48,148 nt of DNA, taken from NCBI GenBank assembly GCA_030835125.1, contig JAUQWM010000010.1, forward strand, positions 1 to 48,148. Reading direction: 5' to 3'. This document shows, piece after piece, positions 6,740-23,749 of the stretch. Origin of the DNA: Gemmatimonadaceae bacterium (GTDB lineage: Bacteria > Gemmatimonadota > Gemmatimonadetes > Gemmatimonadales > Gemmatimonadaceae). The position numbers were made by a program, and so were the translations under genes. Positions within the stretch are counted from its first letter, which is position 1. Each line of letters opens with the position of its first letter. The notes under the pieces were generated by a model, which worked only from the letters and a program-made list of their open reading frames with translations, made no database searches and had not been told where the DNA came from.

Positions 6740-6741
6740 CA

Positions 6742-6882
6742 GAGTGCAGAGTGCAGATCGCAGATTGCGGAGTGCAGAACGGTAGCAAAAGGCGGAGCGG
6801 GTTCGTCGGAGCGAACGCGAGAGGGACCCGCCTCCCCTTCAGTAATCAGCAATCCGCAATCTGCACTCTGCACTCTGCAATC
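6742..6882. repeat. Two-armed heptamer element, GAGTGCA x5 / inverted x5, filling the intergenic gap
   Basis: Left arm 6742-6776 has five 7-bp units on the plus strand (GAGTGCA, GAGTGCA, GATCGCA, GATTGCG, GAGTGCA). Right arm 6848-6882 has five units in inverted orientation (AGCAATC, CGCAATC, TGCACTC, TGCACTC, TGCAATC). The 71-nt spacer holds a perfect small hairpin, GTTCG-TCGGAG-CGAAC, inside a longer imperfect GGCGG...CCGCC stem. The right arm overlaps the ROK-kinase stop codon (6881-6883) and the left arm begins 2 nt from the PfkB start, so the whole intergenic gap is element. It is probably a non-coding member of the family that also carries the S23 gene. Confidence 0.85.
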
Positions 6883-7858
6883 ACTGCTGCTTGTACGCCG
6901 CCACTGCGCCGACCACGCCCGCCGCGGCCAGCGTTCCGGGGACGATCCGGCACGCTTCCACCGCCGGCCGGAAGGCGCGCTTCCGCACCTCGCGACGCAG
7001 GGGTTCGAACAACGCCTCGCCGGCCTGCGTCACGCCGCCCGCGATGACCACCACGTCGGGATTGAAGATGTTCAGCAGGTTGGCCACGCCCGCCCCCAGG
7101 AACCGCGACGTCTCCCGCACCACGTCGAGCGCGACGTCATCGCCCAGTTTGGCCGCCTCGTACACCGTCGCCGCGGTGATCCGTTCGAGGTCGCCGCCCA
7201 CCATGCGCACGAGCAACGCGTCCCCGTCCGAGCTCACGGCCTCGCGCGCCCGCTCCGCGATCGAGGGACCGGAGGCGTACGCCTCCAGGCAGCCGTAGTT
7301 GCCGCACTTGCACCGGCGACCCGTGATGTCGATGGTCGCGTGCCCGATCTCCCCGGCGACGTCCGAGGCCCCGTGGTAGAGCCGGCCGCCCAGGATGATG
7401 CCGCCGCCGATGCCGGTTCCGATCGTCATCCCGATCACGTTGTCGGCCCCCTGCGCGGCGCCTAACCACCACTCGCCCAGCGTCGCGCAGTTCGCGTCGT
7501 TGTCGATGCGCACCGGGAGGCCGGTCCGCCCGGCGATCACGTCGCGCAGCGGGAAGTTCGTCCAGCCCAGGTTGGGCGTGGTGACCACGATGCCCTTCTC
7601 GCGATCGAGCGGACCCGGCGCCCCGACCCCGATGCCCACCACGTCACTGGGTCGCGCCCCCGTCTGCGCGACGGTGTCCGCGATCACGGCCTCGATCATC
7701 CCCACGATGCGATCGATGACCGCATCCGCGCCCAGGTCGGCGCGGGTCGGCTCGGAGCGCAGGGCCAGCACCTCGCTGCCGTCCTCGGCGAGCGCGCCGG
7801 CCACGATGTTGGTGCCGCCGAGGTCGACCCCGACGAGGTACCTGGTTGCAGGGGGCAT
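6881..7858 (-). CDS. ROK-family sugar kinase (glucokinase-like)
   Basis: A 325-aa protein. The N-terminal phosphate loop is VGVDLGGTNIVAGAL. The ROK zinc motif is CKCGNYGCLEAYAS, preceded by EIGHATID. The catalytic Asp lies in IDNDANCA. ROK kinases phosphorylate glucose or related hexoses with ATP. The start is ATG at 7856-7858. A degenerate heptamer array (7862-7889) sits directly upstream and no Shine-Dalgarno is seen. The stop codon overlaps the end of the two-armed element at 6742-6882. The gene is intact and of normal length. Confidence 0.88.
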   Translation of the reverse strand: MPPATRYLVGVDLGGTNIVAGALAEDGSEVLALRSEPTRADLGADAVIDRIVGMIEAVIADTVAQTGARPSDVVGIGVGAPGPLDREKGIVVTTPNLGWTNFPLRDVIAGRTGLPVRIDNDANCATLGEWWLGAAQGADNVIGMTIGTGIGGGIILGGRLYHGASDVAGEIGHATIDITGRRCKCGNYGCLEAYASGPSIAERAREAVSSDGDALLVRMVGGDLERITAATVYEAAKLGDDVALDVVRETSRFLGAGVANLLNIFNPDVVVIAGGVTQAGEALFEPLRREVRKRAFRPAVEACRIVPGTLAAAGVVGAVAAYKQQ

Positions 7859-7915: not shown

Positions 7916-8692
7916 CTAGGCTCCGCCGAAGAGCGCGCGCAGCACGAGATAACCGCCGAGGACAAGGATCAATAAAGCGAAGCCCTGCTTGATTCGCACC
8001 TGCGGGACGCGGCGGTTCAGCCGCGAGCCCAGGAGCGCGCCGACCGCGGCCACCCCGGTGAAGGACAGGACCAGCGTCCAGTCGATGTATTCCTGCCCGA
8101 TATAGCCGGCAAATCCGCTGGTGGCATTCAGCGTGATGATCAGGAGGGAACTGCCCACCGCCGCCCGGATGGGGACGCCGGCCAGGTAGACGAGCGCCGG
8201 CACGATGACGAACCCCCCGCCGGCCCCGATGAGCGCCGTCAGCGCGCCCACCCCCAGGGCCTCGAGCGCGAGCACGGCCGTGAACCGCGATTCGCGCGCC
8301 GGTGCCGGCGCCGCGATCGGCGTCCGGAACGAGTCGAAGAGCATGATGATCGCCGCCGTGAACGCGAACACCCCGAACAAGGACAGTTGCACGACCTCCG
8401 GAACCCGATCCGACACGCGCGCGGTGAAGAACGCCGAGACCATCGCGACCACGCCGAACGGCAGCCCGACCTTGAAGTTGACCGTCCCCATGCGCCAGTG
8501 ACCGAGGAAGCCGACGAACGCACTCATGCCGACCACGGCCAGGCTCATGGCGATCGCCGGCTTGGGGTCCACGCGAAACACGTACAGGAAGATCGGCACC
8601 GCCAGGATGGACCCGCCGCCGCCGAGCAACCCGAGCACCACGCCCACGCCGAATCCGAGGATGATCCCGAAGACTTCGTTAGGCACGGTCAT
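7916..8692 (-). CDS. TSUP / TauE-SafE family membrane transporter
   Basis: A 258-aa hydrophobic protein with about seven to eight membrane segments in two homologous halves. The N-terminal signature is GFGVGVVLGLLGGGGSILAVP and its second-half counterpart GVGALTALIGAGGGFVIVPAL, both typical of the TSUP (TauE/SafE, DUF81) family. These carry sulfite, sulfonates or other small organic anions, and the substrate here is unknown. The ATG is at 8690-8692 and overlaps the upstream glycosyltransferase stop by 4 nt (ATGA), so translation is likely coupled. The codons for Pro-Asn near the start carry one copy of the CGTTAGGC octamer. Confidence 0.85.
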   Translation of the reverse strand: MTVPNEVFGIILGFGVGVVLGLLGGGGSILAVPIFLYVFRVDPKPAIAMSLAVVGMSAFVGFLGHWRMGTVNFKVGLPFGVVAMVSAFFTARVSDRVPEVVQLSLFGVFAFTAAIIMLFDSFRTPIAAPAPARESRFTAVLALEALGVGALTALIGAGGGFVIVPALVYLAGVPIRAAVGSSLLIITLNATSGFAGYIGQEYIDWTLVLSFTGVAAVGALLGSRLNRRVPQVRIKQGFALLILVLGGYLVLRALFGGA

Positions 8693-9681
8693 GCGGCGGT
8701 CGCCTCGAGGGCGCGCGCGGCCACGACCGTGGCCGGCAGGTCGCGCATGCACGCGTGGTGGCCCAGCGGGCAGGTGGGAGGCCCGTGCGGGTGGCAGGGC
8801 CGGCACGGGAGGCCCTCGTGGCCGAGGGCGAGCGACCCGGGAGCGAGTGGCCCGAAACCGAAGCCCGGCACCGTGGGCCCGAAGATGGTGAGCGTGCGCG
8901 TGCCCATGGCCGAGGCGAGGTGCTGGGGCAGGGAGTCGTTGGTGACGAGGAGCAACGCACGCCCGATCAGCTCCGCCGACCCCAGCAGGCCGAGCCGGCC
9001 CGTCGCGTCGATGGCCCCCGGAACGCGCGCGAGGATGGCGTCCGCCAGGTGGCGATCGCTCGACCCGCCGATGATGGCGATCCGCGCACGACCCGACAGG
9101 GTGTCGGCAAGCTCGGCGAACCCGGGCCAGCGCTTGGTGCCCCAGATGCTCCCCGGAGCCAGCGCGATGATCGGTTCGCGGGACGCGCCGTGGAGGGCGA
9201 GCAACTCGTCTACCGCCGTGCGGTCGGCCTGCGAAGGGAACAGCGACGGCCGCAGGTCGGATGCGTCGATCGATGCGGTCTCACCCACCGCCAGTCGCAG
9301 CAGCCGCTCGGCGTGGTGCTGACTGGCATGGTACGCGACCCGCCGCGTGTACAGCAGCCGACCGGCGGACGTGTCGAAGCCGATCCGGTGGCGATACCGG
9401 GCGAGGAGCGCGAGCGCGCCGGAGCGGACCGATCCCTGCGCGCAGTAGGCGACGGCGTCCCGGTCCGCGGCGCGCACCGTGGCGGCGAGTCGCCAGAGCG
9501 GCCCCGGGCCACGTTCGGAACCCTGCTTGTCGTACGCGATCACGCGCTGGACGGCCGGGTGGTTGGCCAGGAGCGGAGCAGCGGCGGGCGTCGTGACCAC
9601 GGTGACGGGCCCGCGCGTCGCGAGGTGGCGAAGCAGGGGCGTGGTGAGGACGACGTCGCCAAGGTAGGAGGTCTGGATTAC
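8689..9681 (-). CDS. GT9 glycosyltransferase (ADP-heptose:LPS heptosyltransferase-like), 5' end disrupted
   Basis: A GT-B glycosyltransferase of family 9. The first recognisable family sequence is VIQTSYLGDVVLTTPLLRHL, followed by ALAPGSIWGTKRWP and TNDSLPQHLASAMG. It would add heptose or another sugar to LPS core at the inner membrane. About 330 residues belong to the family. The start is a problem: homologues begin with Met two to four residues before VIQTS, but here the frame runs straight into a GAGGTCN heptamer array. Reading backwards there is no ATG, GTG or TTG until 9862-9864, inside the antisense S23 gene. A CTG within the array is possible. The 5' end looks overwritten by the element. 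It is coupled to the TSUP gene downstream. Confidence 0.75.
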   Translation of the reverse strand, partial: VIQTSYLGDVVLTTPLLRHLATRGPVTVVTTPAAAPLLANHPAVQRVIAYDKQGSERGPGPLWRLAATVRAADRDAVAYCAQGSVRSGALALLARYRHRIGFDTSAGRLLYTRRVAYHASQHHAERLLRLAVGETASIDASDLRPSLFPSQADRTAVDELLALHGASREPIIALAPGSIWGTKRWPGFAELADTLSGRARIAIIGGSSDRHLADAILARVPGAIDATGRLGLLGSAELIGRALLLVTNDSLPQHLASAMGTRTLTIFGPTVPGFGFGPLAPGSLALGHEGLPCRPCHPHGPPTCPLGHHACMRDLPATVVAARALEATAA

Positions 9682-10234
9682 GAGGTCAGAGGTCAGAGGT
9701 CCGAGGTCTGAGGTCGAGGTCCGAGGTCCGAGGTCCCAGGGTCGGAGGTTACCGAGGCTGGGCGTGCGTGGAAAGGATGGGGAGTGCGTTCCGGTGATGA
9801 CTGGTCGTCGCCTTCTTCGAGCTACTCTGGCTCCATGTCCACGAACCCCCCAGGACCTGCCCACTACCGCCTCATTGTCTGGCAACGATCGATGCAACTG
9901 GTCAAGTCCGTGTACATCGCAAGCGACTCCCTGCCACCCGAGGAGCGGTTTGATCTGGCGAGGCAACTCCGACGGTCAGCGGTTTCGGTCGTTGCCAACA
10001 TCGCTGAGGGAGCGGGCCGCCGTCGACGGCGGGCCTACGCACGGTTCCTGGCCATGGCGAGAGGCTCTGTACGTGAAGTCTCGGTACACCTCGACGTGGT
10101 GGCGTGTTGTGCACTTGCGCCAGCCGAAGTGCTGGAAGAGCCGCGACGGCTGGCGGACGAGGTCTCGCGAATGCTCAGCGCGATGTTGCGCCGACTCGAT
10201 CCCCTCTGACCTCGGACCTCCGACCTCGGACCTC
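9682..10234. mobile_element. Putative S23-carrying heptamer element with inverted GAGGTCN arms
   Basis: The left arm (9682-9736) has eight GAGGTCN units on the plus strand, one short by a base, with decayed units to about 9749. The right arm (10207-10234) has four inverted units (NGACCTC). Between them lies one gene, the S23 four-helix-bundle protein, whose stop codon is inside the first right-arm unit. The right arm ends 2 nt before the lepA stop codon, and the left arm begins at about codon 3 of the GT9 gene, so the element fills the whole intergenic space. I see no transposase, reverse transcriptase or target duplication. Mobility is inferred from the architecture and from related arrays elsewhere in the window. 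Confidence 0.5.
9835..10209 (+). CDS. S23 / four-helix-bundle protein (23S rRNA intervening-sequence protein family, Avd-like)
   Basis: A 124-aa protein. YRLIVWQRSMQLVKSVYIAS, ARQLRRSAVSVVANIAEGAG and YARFLAMARGSVREVSVHLD are the three conserved blocks of the four-helix bundle family (TIGR02436 type). Members are known inside 23S rRNA intervening sequences of Leptospira and Coxiella and are related to Avd of diversity-generating retroelements, which binds nucleic acid. The basic patch GRRRRRAYARF would fit RNA or DNA binding. The start is ATG at 9835; a GTG at 9784 is in frame but adds a low-complexity leader. The gene lies alone on the plus strand among minus-strand genes, inside inverted heptamer arms, far from any rRNA. 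Confidence 0.85.
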   Translation: MSTNPPGPAHYRLIVWQRSMQLVKSVYIASDSLPPEERFDLARQLRRSAVSVVANIAEGAGRRRRRAYARFLAMARGSVREVSVHLDVVACCALAPAEVLEEPRRLADEVSRMLSAMLRRLDPL

Positions 10235-10236
10235 GC

Positions 10237-12033
10237 CTAGTCGACCTGCAGCACCGCCAGGAACGCCTCCTGCGGGATCTCCACCGCCCCCACCTGCTTC
10301 ATCCGCTTCTTGCCTTCCTTCTGCTTCTCCAGGAGCTTGCGCTTGCGCGTGATGTCGCCGCCGTAACACTTCGCCAGCACGTCCTTCCGCAGCGGCTTCA
10401 CCGTCGTCCGCGCGATCACCTTGTTCCCGATCGCCGCCTGGATCGCGACCTCGAACAGTTGCCGCGGGATGAGCTCCTTCAGCTTGTCGGCGATCTTCCG
10501 GCCCCACTCGTACGCCTTGTCCTGGTGGATGATCACCGAGAACGCGTCGAGCAGGTCGCCGTTGATCAGCATGTCCAGCCGCACCAGCTTGCTCGTCCGG
10601 TAGTCGGCCAGCTCGTAGTCCAGCCCGGCGTAGCCGCGGCTGATCGTCTTCAGCCGGTCGTAGAAGTCGAGGATGATCTCGGCCAGCGGGAAGTCCCACT
10701 CGAACTCCACCCGGGTGGGATCGAGGTACTTCATGCCCCGGTAGATCCCGCGCCGCTCGGTGCCTAACGTCATGATCGGCCCGATGTACTCGGCCGGCGA
10801 CACGATCCGCGCCTTCACGAACGGCTCGTCCACGTGGTCCAGCGATGCCGCCGGCGGCATCTTCGACGGGTTCTCGATCAGCTCCATCGACCCGTCGGTC
10901 CGGTACACGTGGTACTCCACGTTCGGCACCGTCGTGACCAGGTCGAGGTCCGACTCGCGCTCCAGCCGCTCCTGCACGATCTCCATGTGCAGCAGCCCCA
11001 GGAAGCCGCACCGGAACCCGAAGCCCAGCGCCGTCGACGTCTCCGGCTCGTACTTCAGCGACGCATCGTTGAGCTGCAGCTTGGACAGCGCGTCGCGCAG
11101 GTTCTCGTACTGGGTGGTGTCGGTGGGGTAGATCCCGGCGAACACCATCGAATGCACGTCCTTGTAGCCCGGCAGCGCCTCCGCCGCGTGATGGTCGGCG
11201 TCGAAGATCGTGTCGCCGGCGCGTGTCTCGCGCACCGACCGCACGTTGGCCAGGACGTAGCCCACCTCGCCCGCCGTCAGCCGCTCGCCCTTCACCTGGC
11301 GCAGCTGCAGGTAGCCAACCTCCGCCACCTCGTAGCGCGCATCGTTGGCGCCAAACGTGATCTGCATGCCGGGGTGGAGCTCGCCGTCGACGACCCGCAC
11401 GCTCGGGATCGCGCCACGATACCGGTCGTAGTACGAGTCGAAGATCAGCGCCCGGAGCGGTGCCGCCGGGTTGCCCCGTGGCGGCGGGACCCGCCGCACG
11501 ATCGCCTCGAGCAGCTCGTCGATCCCCTTGCCCTCCTTCGCGCTCACCAGGAGGATGTCGTCGGGATCCACGCCGATCAGGTCATGCACCTCCTGCTTGC
11601 GACGCTCCGGCTCCGCGCCGGGCAGGTCGATCTTGTTCAGCACCGGAACGATCTCGAGCCCGGCGTCGAGCGCGAGGAACAGGTTGGACAGCGTCTGCGC
11701 CTGGATCCCCTGCGACGCGTCCACGACGAGGATCGCCCCCTCGCAGGCGGCCAGCGAACGCGACACCTCGTAGGTGAAGTCCACGTGGCCCGGCGTGTCG
11801 ATCAGGTTGAGCTCGTACTGCTGCCCGTCGCGCGCGGCGTACTGCATCCGCACCGCATTGAGCTTGATGGTGATGCCCCGTTCGCGCTCGAGGTCGAGCG
11901 TGTCGAGCACCTGGTCCTTCATCTCGCGCTTCTCGAGGGTGCCAGTGACCTCGATCAGCCGGTCGGCCAGGGTGGACTTGCCATGATCGATATGCGCGAC
12001 AATGCAGAAGTTGCGGATGTTCGGGAGCTTCAA
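10237..12033 (-). CDS. lepA: Elongation factor 4 (LepA), ribosome back-translocase GTPase
   Basis: About 598 aa. GTPase motifs: AHIDHGKST (G1), DTPGHVDF (G3), NKIDLPGA (G4), SAKEGKG (G5). The LepA C-terminal domain is present ([20 protein letters not shown]). It remodels stalled or mis-translocated ribosomes. The family N-terminus here is [20 protein letters not shown], so I place the start at TTG (12031-12033). The frame stays open to 12249, but that leader is Arg-rich and runs through a degenerate heptamer array (12039-12059), so a longer form is unlikely. An original ATG may have been lost to the array. The stop codon is 2 nt from the right arm of the S23 element. Confidence 0.9.
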
Positions 12034-12038
12034 AACGC

Positions 12039-12059
12039 GGGACTCGTGATTGGTGACTC
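12039..12059 (-). repeat. Degenerate heptamer array, GAGTCAC-type x3
   Basis: Minus-strand units GAGTCAC, CAATCAC, GAGTCCC in register, ending a few bases before the probable TTG start of lepA. Short and decayed, so its membership rests on the pattern seen at the other loci. Confidence 0.5.
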
Positions 12060-12117
12060 CAGGCTCGGCGGTGCGCCGGCCCGGAGAAGTATAGCGGGAC
12101 TCGCGTTGATCCCGGGG

Positions 12118-12155
12118 AAAACGGAAGCGCCCCGACGCATGTCGAGGCGCTTCCG
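12118..12155 (-). terminator. Intrinsic terminator after the DUF4384 gene
   Basis: A perfect 10-bp stem, CGGAAGCGCC / GGCGCTTCCG (12122-12131 with 12146-12155), encloses a 14-nt loop. On the minus strand TTTT follows (12118-12121). It lies 27 nt past the stop of the DUF4384 gene and separates it from lepA. Confidence 0.8.
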
Positions 12156-12181
12156 GGACCTCCGACCGCACCCGCGGTCGC

Positions 12182-13564
12182 CTACATCGGGGGCTTCTTC
12201 TTCTCCGTCGTCGAGCCCTGGATCGTCGTTGGCTGCGTGGTGGTGCCACCGCTCGAGCCCGTCGTCGGCCGGCTCACCTGGTCGGGCTTCGAGCGCGGTT
12301 CGGACGTTCGACCCGTGTTGCCGAATCCCGTCCGGGAATCGGTCCGCGACCCCGTCGCGCGACGCGGTTCACCAGCGGGCTTGGCCTTGGTCGGCTCACG
12401 CGGCGGCGGGACGCGCGTGGCGGCGTCGCCGTTGTCGGCGACCCGCGGCTTCTCCTTGTTCGCCGCTTCGGCGCGGTCGAACCCGCCCGTCGTCGCGGCG
12501 CCCGGCGTCGCGGCACCCGGCTGCTTGCGGGCGTCCTCGGCCTTCAGCTTTCGCGTCGCGCGCACCGGGATCGACATCACGTCATCCCAGTCGGTGGGCA
12601 CACCGGACGGCTGGTCGAACCGGCCAGGTCGCTCCGCCGGGGGCGCGTCGGGCCCGGAGACCGGGACCGGCACGGGCGTGGGCGCGAACAGGCCGCCGCG
12701 CACCACTGCGTCGTTAGGTACGATCGTGGCGCTGTCGGTCGGCTGCCCCGTCCCCGGCGGGAAGGGCCCGCTGGCCACGACGACGCCGGTGTTGCACGCA
12801 TACGAAACCAGCGACAGCGACGAGTAGCAGTACACACCGCGATAGAAGTCGCGGCACATCGACCGAAGCGGATACGGCGTCAGGTCGAAGTCGACCAGCC
12901 GCCACCAGGGAACGCCGGCCACCGCCGACCCGCCGTTGCGCAGCAGCGTCCCGCAGAGCGCATAGGCGCTCATGGTGCTGCTCGGGTATCCCGTCGGGAA
13001 GTAGTAGTCGACATCGTAGTCGTACGGTGTGGACGCATCCCAGAGGACCCGGGCCGCGAAACGCTCGATGAATACGTCCGGGCGGCGGGCAATGGAGCGG
13101 TTGTCGACCGTGAAGTGACTCCACCCACCGATCCGGTCCCAGTCGCGGTTCTCGAAGGTCGAAAAGTCGAGCGGGGCGTAGCTCGCGACCGCAAAGACAT
13201 ACCCGCCCATCTGTCCCGAGGCGACGAAGGAGTACTCCCCGCCAAGCCGGTGATTCCGGGCGTAGTAGACCTGTCCGGCCCGGACCGCGGCCCGCTGTGT
13301 GCGGGACTGCGGATACAAAATCTGCATCCGACCGTCGCCGCCGACGCTGACCACGGCCACGTAGGCGTTGTCGCTGACCTCGAATCGCACACGCATCGGC
13401 GTCCCGGAGACGACGCCGCGGTCCCCGTCGATGGAAACCCGCACACGCGGTGCCTCATCCGACCAGGTACCAGTCGGCCGGTCGTTCCAGCGCGCTGCCT
13501 GCGCGGGCCCGACGCTGGGGGCGGCCAGCGCAAACGCTGCCGCGAGAAACATGGTCCTGCTCAT
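12182..13564 (-). CDS. Secreted DUF4384 domain protein with disordered Pro/Thr-rich tail
   Basis: A 460-aa protein. The signal peptide is residues 1-23 ([23 protein letters not shown]). Residues about 35-150 contain a beta-rich DUF4384-type domain ([38 protein letters not shown]). Residues about 150-270 are Tyr/Cys-rich with five or so Cys that could pair outside the cytoplasm. The tail from about 300 is Pro/Thr/Lys-rich and probably disordered. A clear Shine-Dalgarno (GGAGG) lies 5 nt before the ATG at 13562-13564. A terminator follows the gene. The function is unknown. DUF4384 is found in surface-associated and kinase-linked proteins. Confidence 0.75.
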
Positions 13565-22707: not shown

Positions 22708-23601
22708 GTGTCCGCGGCGCGCCCGCGGATCGCCGTCACCCTCGGCGACCCGCGCGGTATCGGTCCGGAAGTCACGCGGAAGGCCATCGAGGCGTCGCCC
22801 GACCGCGACGCCTTCGTCATTGTCGGACCGACCGGCACGGGCGTCACCCCCGACGTCGTGACGGGCGAATGGACGCCTGGTTCGCCGGCCGCGGCGGCGG
22901 GTTCCTTGGCCGGAGCCGCCATCGAGCGGGCCGTCGGCATGGCGATGGCGGGTGAGGTCGACGGGATCGTGACGGCACCCATCGACAAGGCGGCGCTCCT
23001 GGCGGGTGGCTACGATTATCCCGGCCACACCGAGATGCTCGCGGCGCTCACCGGCTGCGACGTGGCGATGATGCTCGCGTCGGACCGGCTGCGCGTCGTG
23101 CTGGCGACGACGCACGTACCGCTGCGCGACGTGCCGGGACTGGTGACGGTCGAGGGCATCGAGCGCGTGTCGCGGATCGTGCGCGACGGTCTGCGGGACT
23201 GGTTCGGTATCGCGAGCCCGCGCATCGCGCTGTGCGCCCTGAATCCCCACGCCGGCGACGGCGGGCGATTCGGGACGGAAGACGACGTGATCCTGGCCCC
23301 GGCGGCGCGACGGGCGGGGCTCGCCGGCCCATTTCCCGCCGACACCGTGTTCGTGCGCGCCCTGCGCGGCGAGTTCGACGCCGTGATCGCGCCCTATCAC
23401 GACGTCGGCATGACGGCGATCAAGGTGGCATCGTTCGGTGCCGCCGTGAACGTCACGCTGGGGCTGCCGTTTCCCCGCACCTCACCGGACCACGGCACCG
23501 CGCTCGACATCGCCGGGCAGGGCATCGCGGACGCATCAAGCATGATCGAGGCGATGCGGATGTGCGTGGGAATTGCGAGAGGCGCGAGGTCTGAGGTCTG
23601 A
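22708..23601 (+). CDS. pdxA: 4-hydroxythreonine-4-phosphate dehydrogenase
   Basis: A 297-aa protein. N-terminal motif AVTLGDPRGIGPEV, metal-ligand regions GHTEML, NPHAGDGGRFG and TSPDHGTALDIAG, and YHDVG are present. It oxidises 4-phospho-hydroxythreonine with NAD+ in pyridoxal phosphate synthesis. The start is GTG at 22708-22710, two bases after the surA-like stop. The last residues, ARSEV and the stop codon, are encoded by the first two GAGGTCT heptamers of the array at 23586, so the native C-terminus has been replaced by repeat sequence. The protein is somewhat shorter than the E. coli enzyme but has all motifs. Confidence 0.9.
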   Translation: MSAARPRIAVTLGDPRGIGPEVTRKAIEASPDRDAFVIVGPTGTGVTPDVVTGEWTPGSPAAAAGSLAGAAIERAVGMAMAGEVDGIVTAPIDKAALLAGGYDYPGHTEMLAALTGCDVAMMLASDRLRVVLATTHVPLRDVPGLVTVEGIERVSRIVRDGLRDWFGIASPRIALCALNPHAGDGGRFGTEDDVILAPAARRAGLAGPFPADTVFVRALRGEFDAVIAPYHDVGMTAIKVASFGAAVNVTLGLPFPRTSPDHGTALDIAGQGIADASSMIEAMRMCVGIARGARSEV

Positions 23602-23655
23602 AGGCCGAGGTCGGAGGTCTGAAGGCCGAGGTCGGAGGTCTGAGGTCGGAGGTCG
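23586..23655 (+). repeat. Heptamer tandem array, GAGGTCT/GAGGTCG/GAAGGCC x10
   Basis: Ten units in strict 7-bp register, with a visible higher-order pattern: GAAGGCC-GAGGTCG-GAGGTCT is repeated twice as a 21-bp block. The first two units encode the end and the stop codon of pdxA. The unit family is the same as that of the S23 element arms (GAGGTCN). Confidence 0.95.
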
Positions 23656-23672
23656 GAGAGAGCAGCGTTATC

Positions 23673-23749
23673 GAGTCACGAGTCACGAGTCACGAGTCAC
23701 GAGTCACGAGTCACCAGTCACGAGTCACGAGTCACGATCTACGAGTCAC
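23673..23749 (+). repeat. Heptamer tandem array, GAGTCAC x11
   Basis: Eleven 7-bp units, nine identical (GAGTCAC) and two variants (CAGTCAC, GATCTAC). The array ends six bases before the CDF exporter ATG. It follows the GAGGTCN array after a 17-nt spacer, so two different heptamers lie next to each other in one intergenic gap. Confidence 0.95.

Follow-up and report, generated by a model that had tools for sequence, protein, structure and literature searches.

What is an S23 gene doing between two inverted arrays of heptamers, in the gap that separates lepA from a glycosyltransferase gene? Structures of S23 proteins have been solved and, to our knowledge, no job is known for them outside the intervening sequences (IVSs) of 23S rRNA. 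The locus lies in a stretch of 48,148 nucleotides from a Gemmatimonadaceae bacterium, hereafter the window, and an earlier note on this DNA had taken it for a candidate new mobile element. The analysis described here indicates that it probably belongs to a class of minimal mobile elements, widespread among bacteria and 0.4-0.6 kb long, which we denote S23 elements, each with an S23 gene inside inverted arms of tandem heptamers.

The locus between lepA and GT9

The anatomy that the earlier note had read from the letters is borne out by pattern scans and profile searches, which give the following features of the window.

9682..9735, plus strand: left arm, eight GAGGTC(N) units (sequence, pattern scan)
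9835..10209, plus strand: S23 four-helix-bundle gene, 124 aa, PF05635 (profile match, predicted fold)
10208..10234, minus strand: right arm, four inverted units, overlapping the S23 stop codon (sequence, pattern scan)
10237..12249, minus strand: lepA, one flank, its stop 2 nt off the right arm
8689..9690, open frame to 9966, minus strand: GT9 (glycosyltransferase family 9-like), the other flank, its frame invaded by the left arm
23586..23654, plus strand: gene-less GAGGTCN array, of the same family as the window element (pattern and array scans)

The left-arm units start at 9682, 9689, 9696, 9703, 9710, 9716, 9723, and 9730, with one spacer base short between the fifth and the sixth, and the inverted GACCTC units of the right arm start at 10208, 10215, 10222, and 10229. 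Two-unit GAGGTCN matches, with up to two mismatches allowed, number 29 in the window, against 9.9 expected and a shuffle maximum of 18. The enclosed gene matches the S23/23S_rRNA_IVP family, PF05635 (E 2.5e-30), at 105 bits, where the curated cut-off is 33.8. It opens with ATG at 9835 and closes with TGA at 10207-10209, so that its stop codon, as the earlier note had it, runs into the right arm, whose first unit begins at 10208. The outer edges also fall where they had been placed, 2 nt from the lepA stop (10237) and on codons 2-3 of GT9. The GT9 frame reads on through the left array and contains no in-frame ATG; the in-frame starts left to it are GTG or TTG opposite the S23 gene, or CTG inside the array. 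The native start codon of GT9 is lost to the left arm. As RNA, the element is more stably folded than any of 100 shuffles (z -4.86).

S23 genes are under purifying selection, with a dN/dS of 0.05-0.15 in diverged pairs, and their products are basic, a positive charge being found in 40 of 41. The predicted fold of the window protein (m96f2562b0289, pLDDT 94) has XCC0516 as its nearest structure and superimposes on Avd of diversity-generating retroelements (DGRs) with Z about 14 and an rmsd of 1.9 over 107 residues. Both ends of the contig (window 7-42 and 48112-48148) consist of GAGAGTT arrays, so the assembly was probably broken at heptamer repeats.

Arms, arrays, and their genomes

Scored for inverted arms, 48 of the 51 S23 loci in the order exceed the 99th percentile of swapped controls, and 48 of 73 scorable named loci exceed that of displaced controls. 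The named loci come from Acidobacteria, Gemmatimonadetes, Alpha-, Beta-, Gamma-, and Deltaproteobacteria, Planctomycetes, Cyanobacteria, Bacteroidetes, and Chloroflexi, and in most of them the arm period is 7. The contig scan relied on a tighter S23 profile, one made from 18 diverse S23 proteins being too loose. The check proposed in the earlier note, whether heptamer arms flank many S23 genes, therefore comes out in favor of its reading, with units that differ. What does not hold is the treatment of the arms as specifically GAGGTCN: S23 genes generally carry period-7 inverted arms, each with a unit of its own, and because the unit differs from one S23 gene to the next, S23 genes lacking heptamer flanks would be misleading as counterevidence if read as GAGGTCN only. 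No 23S rRNA motifs were found near the fetched S23 loci and no S23 genes in phage records; Rfam returned no matches on four loci, and the assignment of one locus, L059, to a 23S rRNA position proved wrong.

The genome of the window encodes eight S23 genes, with the arm units GAGAGTT, GCAGAGT, AGGCATC, GAGGTCN, ATCGTGA, GGGAGAC, the 6-mer GGGGCT, and GCAGATT/GCAGAGT; the GGGAGAC arms, at L036, lie below the automatic arm score and were recognized by eye. A de novo census of 832 kb of this 4.48-Mb genome recovered 135 period-7 arrays, against none in shuffles, and no arrays of periods 5, 8, 10, or 11, which places the genome among the bacteria with dispersed tandem heptamers. The scan recovered as dispersed families the heptamers of which the S23 arms are built, GGGAGAC and GCAGATT being only weakly dispersed, that is, without exact long arrays outside S23 loci; for the CACGAGT, AATCGGG, and GAGGGTC/GAGGCTC families, no S23 gene with such a unit was found in the window's genome. 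The gene-less copies that the earlier note expected elsewhere are plentiful: the three-unit GAGGTCN pattern matches 125 times in this genome and once each in two of 98 relatives, and three units of AGGCATC likewise match 125 times here and not at all in the 98 relatives.

In the 832 kb, 11 close pairs of arrays form gene-less hairpins, whose orientation is constant within each family; array pairs that face inward at a distance of 300-700 nt all enclose S23. By a crude gene call, arrays lie near gene 3' ends, at a median distance of 14.5 nt, and seldom in divergent gaps, which hold 6 of 91 but make up 27% of gap bases. Within the window, a gene-less GCAGAGT/GCAGATT hairpin with a 75-nt spacer, of the family of the S23 genes L032 and L038, occupies 6740-6883, and at 23586-23744 a GAGGTCN array is directly followed by a CACGAGT array. 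Such side-by-side families recur in the genome, and CACGAGT arrays often share the boundary GTGCCGAGTCAC.

Arm units recur as arrays in the genome of their own S23 gene and hardly ever in another. Exact arrays of an arm unit outside S23 loci numbered 53 in the unit's own genome and 2 in other genomes (6.3 vs 32.1 Mb x units); the matching was exact, one mismatch being too permissive to discriminate. Ten S23-free genomes yielded no period-7 arrays in 609 kb, whereas fifteen genomes with at least five S23 genes yielded 178 in 1.55 Mb, or 43 in 714 kb when the window's genome is set aside; the correlation between S23 genes and heptamer arrays (Spearman 0.67, P 7e-5) is not corrected for phylogeny. 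Three genomes depart from this pattern: G005, G009, and G019 contain many S23 genes but hardly any tandem arrays. The S23 arms of G005 and G019 (L148-L159) are long and inverted, with little clean tandem structure, and several show GAACG or AACTGA towards the outer end; these loci may represent an older or different sub-class. For most elements, the heptamer is dispersed in the same genome as gene-less hairpins and arrays.

These observations bear directly on the possibility that polymerase slippage, with no part for S23, produces the arrays, the association being coincidental. Heptamers are known as the most frequent long simple repeats of many bacteria, and slippage has been suggested for them (PMC4679880, PMC6344855); the unit number differs between two near-identical plasmid copies of an S23 element considered below. 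Slippage probably accounts for such changes in unit number. As the whole story it is unlikely, and coincidence most improbable, given the lack of arrays in the S23-free genomes, the exact identity between the heptamers of the arms and those dispersed in the same genome, and the inverted pairing around S23.

In at least 22 Alphaproteobacterial loci (L180, L182, L207, L209, and L229 among them), an S23 gene lies between nuoC and nuoD of the complex I operon, and here the arm units vary by species, both arms jointly (GGCAATA, GCGAATA, GGCAGTC, GTGATTA, and others). In fixed windows at 22 loci, arm pairing scored 17.4 for the native arms and 11.6 for swapped ones, a difference reached in 0 of 20000 permutations. 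The nuoC-nuoD elements are apparently long fixed, which counts against the mobile reading, with their arms still co-evolving; the two arms of an element evolve jointly.

Insertion and what might drive it

Does the unit move? In 29 relatives, we matched lepA and read the adjoining 1.4 kb. The adjacency of lepA and GT9 is kept in 25 of the 29, and in none of them does an S23 gene appear in the 1.4 kb next to lepA, so that the insertion is specific to the window's genome among the relatives compared. The earlier note had held that the S23 locus being conserved at lepA/GT9 in all strains, with no empty sites, would speak against mobility; what 25 of the relatives contain is the pair without the S23 unit, as expected if a unit was inserted. 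Two of them carry other gene-less heptamer arrays or hairpins in the same gap (AGCTGAT in L281, AGCCGGA in L302), which makes the gap a repeated target.

The clean joins that the earlier note had hoped for come from sister elements on cyanobacterial plasmids. At a first site, on Trichormus variabilis plasmid C and Scytonema NIES-4073 plasmid1, an S23 element lies between two transfer genes; six plasmids with flanks 97% identical lack the element, and two of these read through the join. The empty sequence is AAAAAGTAATTAACAAAT and the filled one AAAAA-GTAAT-AAATCAGAATTCAGG...GAGTTCTTCTTT-GTAAT-TAACAAAT, a duplication of 5 bp, GTAAT; between the two filled copies, one arm differs by two heptamer units. 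At a second site, in another operon, the element sits inside duplicated TTCTA in pC052_D and pNsp_a, most clearly in the latter, and four homologous plasmid copies are without it; in pNsp_c, a different S23 element occupies the next gap of the same operon. Filled and empty states of one locus, the hallmark of a transposable element, are thereby both represented, and together with the GTAAT and TTCTA duplications they show that S23 elements move as units. Sister elements appear to insert intact, with 5-bp target duplications, into short operon gaps, typically at a stop codon. At the window locus no duplication can be seen, and the outer arm edges of 90 pooled S23 loci show no excess of direct repeats, so the 5-bp duplication is documented at two sites, both from a single closely related family of elements.

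Comparisons at cas6-cas4, cas10-cmr3, nrdB-nrdA, TraM, and pC052_A likewise showed presence and absence of S23, with joins that are not clean because the gap sequence itself has diverged. Two of these elements lie inside CRISPR operons of cyanobacterial plasmids, one within cas6-cas4 of type I-D (L251), with an unusually long upstream array of over 250 nt, and one within cas10-cmr3 of type III-B (L261). On Nostoc plasmids, two S23 elements (L342, L345) are nested in a longer repeated sequence, which also occurs free of S23 (L344).

The empty sites weigh on another reading, in which S23 and its arms form an immobile, vertically inherited mRNA hairpin, akin to the 23S rRNA IVS, with the arms kept only for cleavage by RNase III. 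The conserved nuoC-nuoD position with co-evolving arms and the stable fold of the element would fit it, and RNase III cuts the stem of the Coxiella IVS (PMC4990558). Empty sites with target duplications, along with dispersed gene-less copies, contradict it as the sole explanation and render it improbable, even if it could describe the fate of arm transcripts.

If the unit moves, an enzyme must be sought elsewhere: as the earlier note had recognized, nothing in the element cuts or copies DNA, S23 being its sole gene and no catalytic domain being encoded. The search for a transposase-coding parent covered the RVT_1 and Y1_Tnp profiles. RVT_1 had no match in the window's genome, G006, or G059, and Y1_Tnp none in the window's genome or G006, both of which are rich in arrays; the bAvd profile PF22296 had no match in the window's genome and matched nothing in controls either. 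Movement by reverse transcription, as in DGRs, or by a RAYT-like route, as for REP hairpins, which are moved by Y1 transposases, has in its favor the Avd fold of S23, Avd being the partner of reverse transcriptase in DGRs. With neither enzyme found in these array-rich genomes it is very improbable, and the reverse-transcriptase partner to which the kinship with Avd had pointed is left unsupported by the lack of an RVT_1 gene in the window's genome.

The strongest rival is a trans-acting DDE transposase of the host that moves the unit as a MITE-like passenger, with S23 as cargo or regulator and no part in movement. A 5-bp target duplication is what cut-and-paste enzymes typically leave, and the lack of a catalytic domain inside the element agrees with this scheme. 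Transposases, however, read fixed ends, whereas S23 arms differ within one genome and turn over at one site; moreover, the enclosed gene is S23 wherever the arms were followed, and it is under purifying selection. We therefore consider the passenger scheme unlikely, if by no means negligible.

Our own proposal gives S23 the leading part. The basic, Avd-like protein would recognize the arms built of its own heptamer, whether paired or single-stranded; the arm-bound protein may bring in a host or resident enzyme for cutting and joining; and copies that lost the gene, or simple arrays of the same heptamer, could be carried along as non-autonomous members. Tentatively, then, S23 proteins might confer mobility on a new class of elements, each protein reading its own heptamer; most of the heptamer repeats that abound in many bacteria would then be cognate sites of such elements, extant or lost, and their gene-less offspring.

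Comparison with known systems

This proposal joins two long-standing puzzles, the job of S23 outside 23S rRNA IVSs and the unexplained heptamer repeats, both of which become directly testable. S23 elements would add to the known mobile elements a type that encodes no cutting enzyme and whose end sequence is not fixed, in a design, with a copy-specific heptamer, that recurs across about ten phyla. REP/RAYT systems and MITEs are short hairpin elements in intergenic gaps, mobilized by trans-acting proteins, and S23 elements resemble them in form and location. They differ from REP/RAYT in that no Y1 transposase (Y1_Tnp) was found in the window's genome, and from MITEs in that their ends are not a fixed sequence, the arms differing between S23 copies in one genome. 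With DGRs they share the predicted fold of Avd, which is essential for retrohoming (PMC10053308), and they depart from them in that no reverse transcriptase (RVT_1) was found in the window's genome.

Heptamer repeats have been described without a mechanism in Xanthomonas (GGGAATC) and Nostoc (GGGGAYT) (PMC4692102) and in Beggiatoaceae (TAACTGA) (PMC4679880), and heptamer periodicity has been termed unexplained (PMC6344855). Those repeats are, like the ones described here, tandem, mostly intergenic, dispersed, and genome-specific (PMC4692102, PMC4679880), and the Xanthomonas heptamers often form inverted pairs, like the arms of S23 elements (PMC4692102). A term search of PMC4692102 and PMC4679880 found no mention of S23, and no paper linking S23 to heptamer repeats was found in a search that did not take in most subscription journals or any preprints.

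The closest counterpart is the IVS of the Coxiella burnetii 23S rRNA, 428 nt long, with a 28-bp terminal stem and an S23 ORF, for which mobility has long been suspected, though only as a hypothesis (PMC4990558). The window element is of similar size and likewise holds an S23 ORF between complementary, stem-forming terminal inverted repeats. It lies, however, between lepA and GT9 rather than in a 23S rRNA helix; its arms are tandem heptamers, with cognate gene-less arrays dispersed; and its sister elements insert with target duplication.
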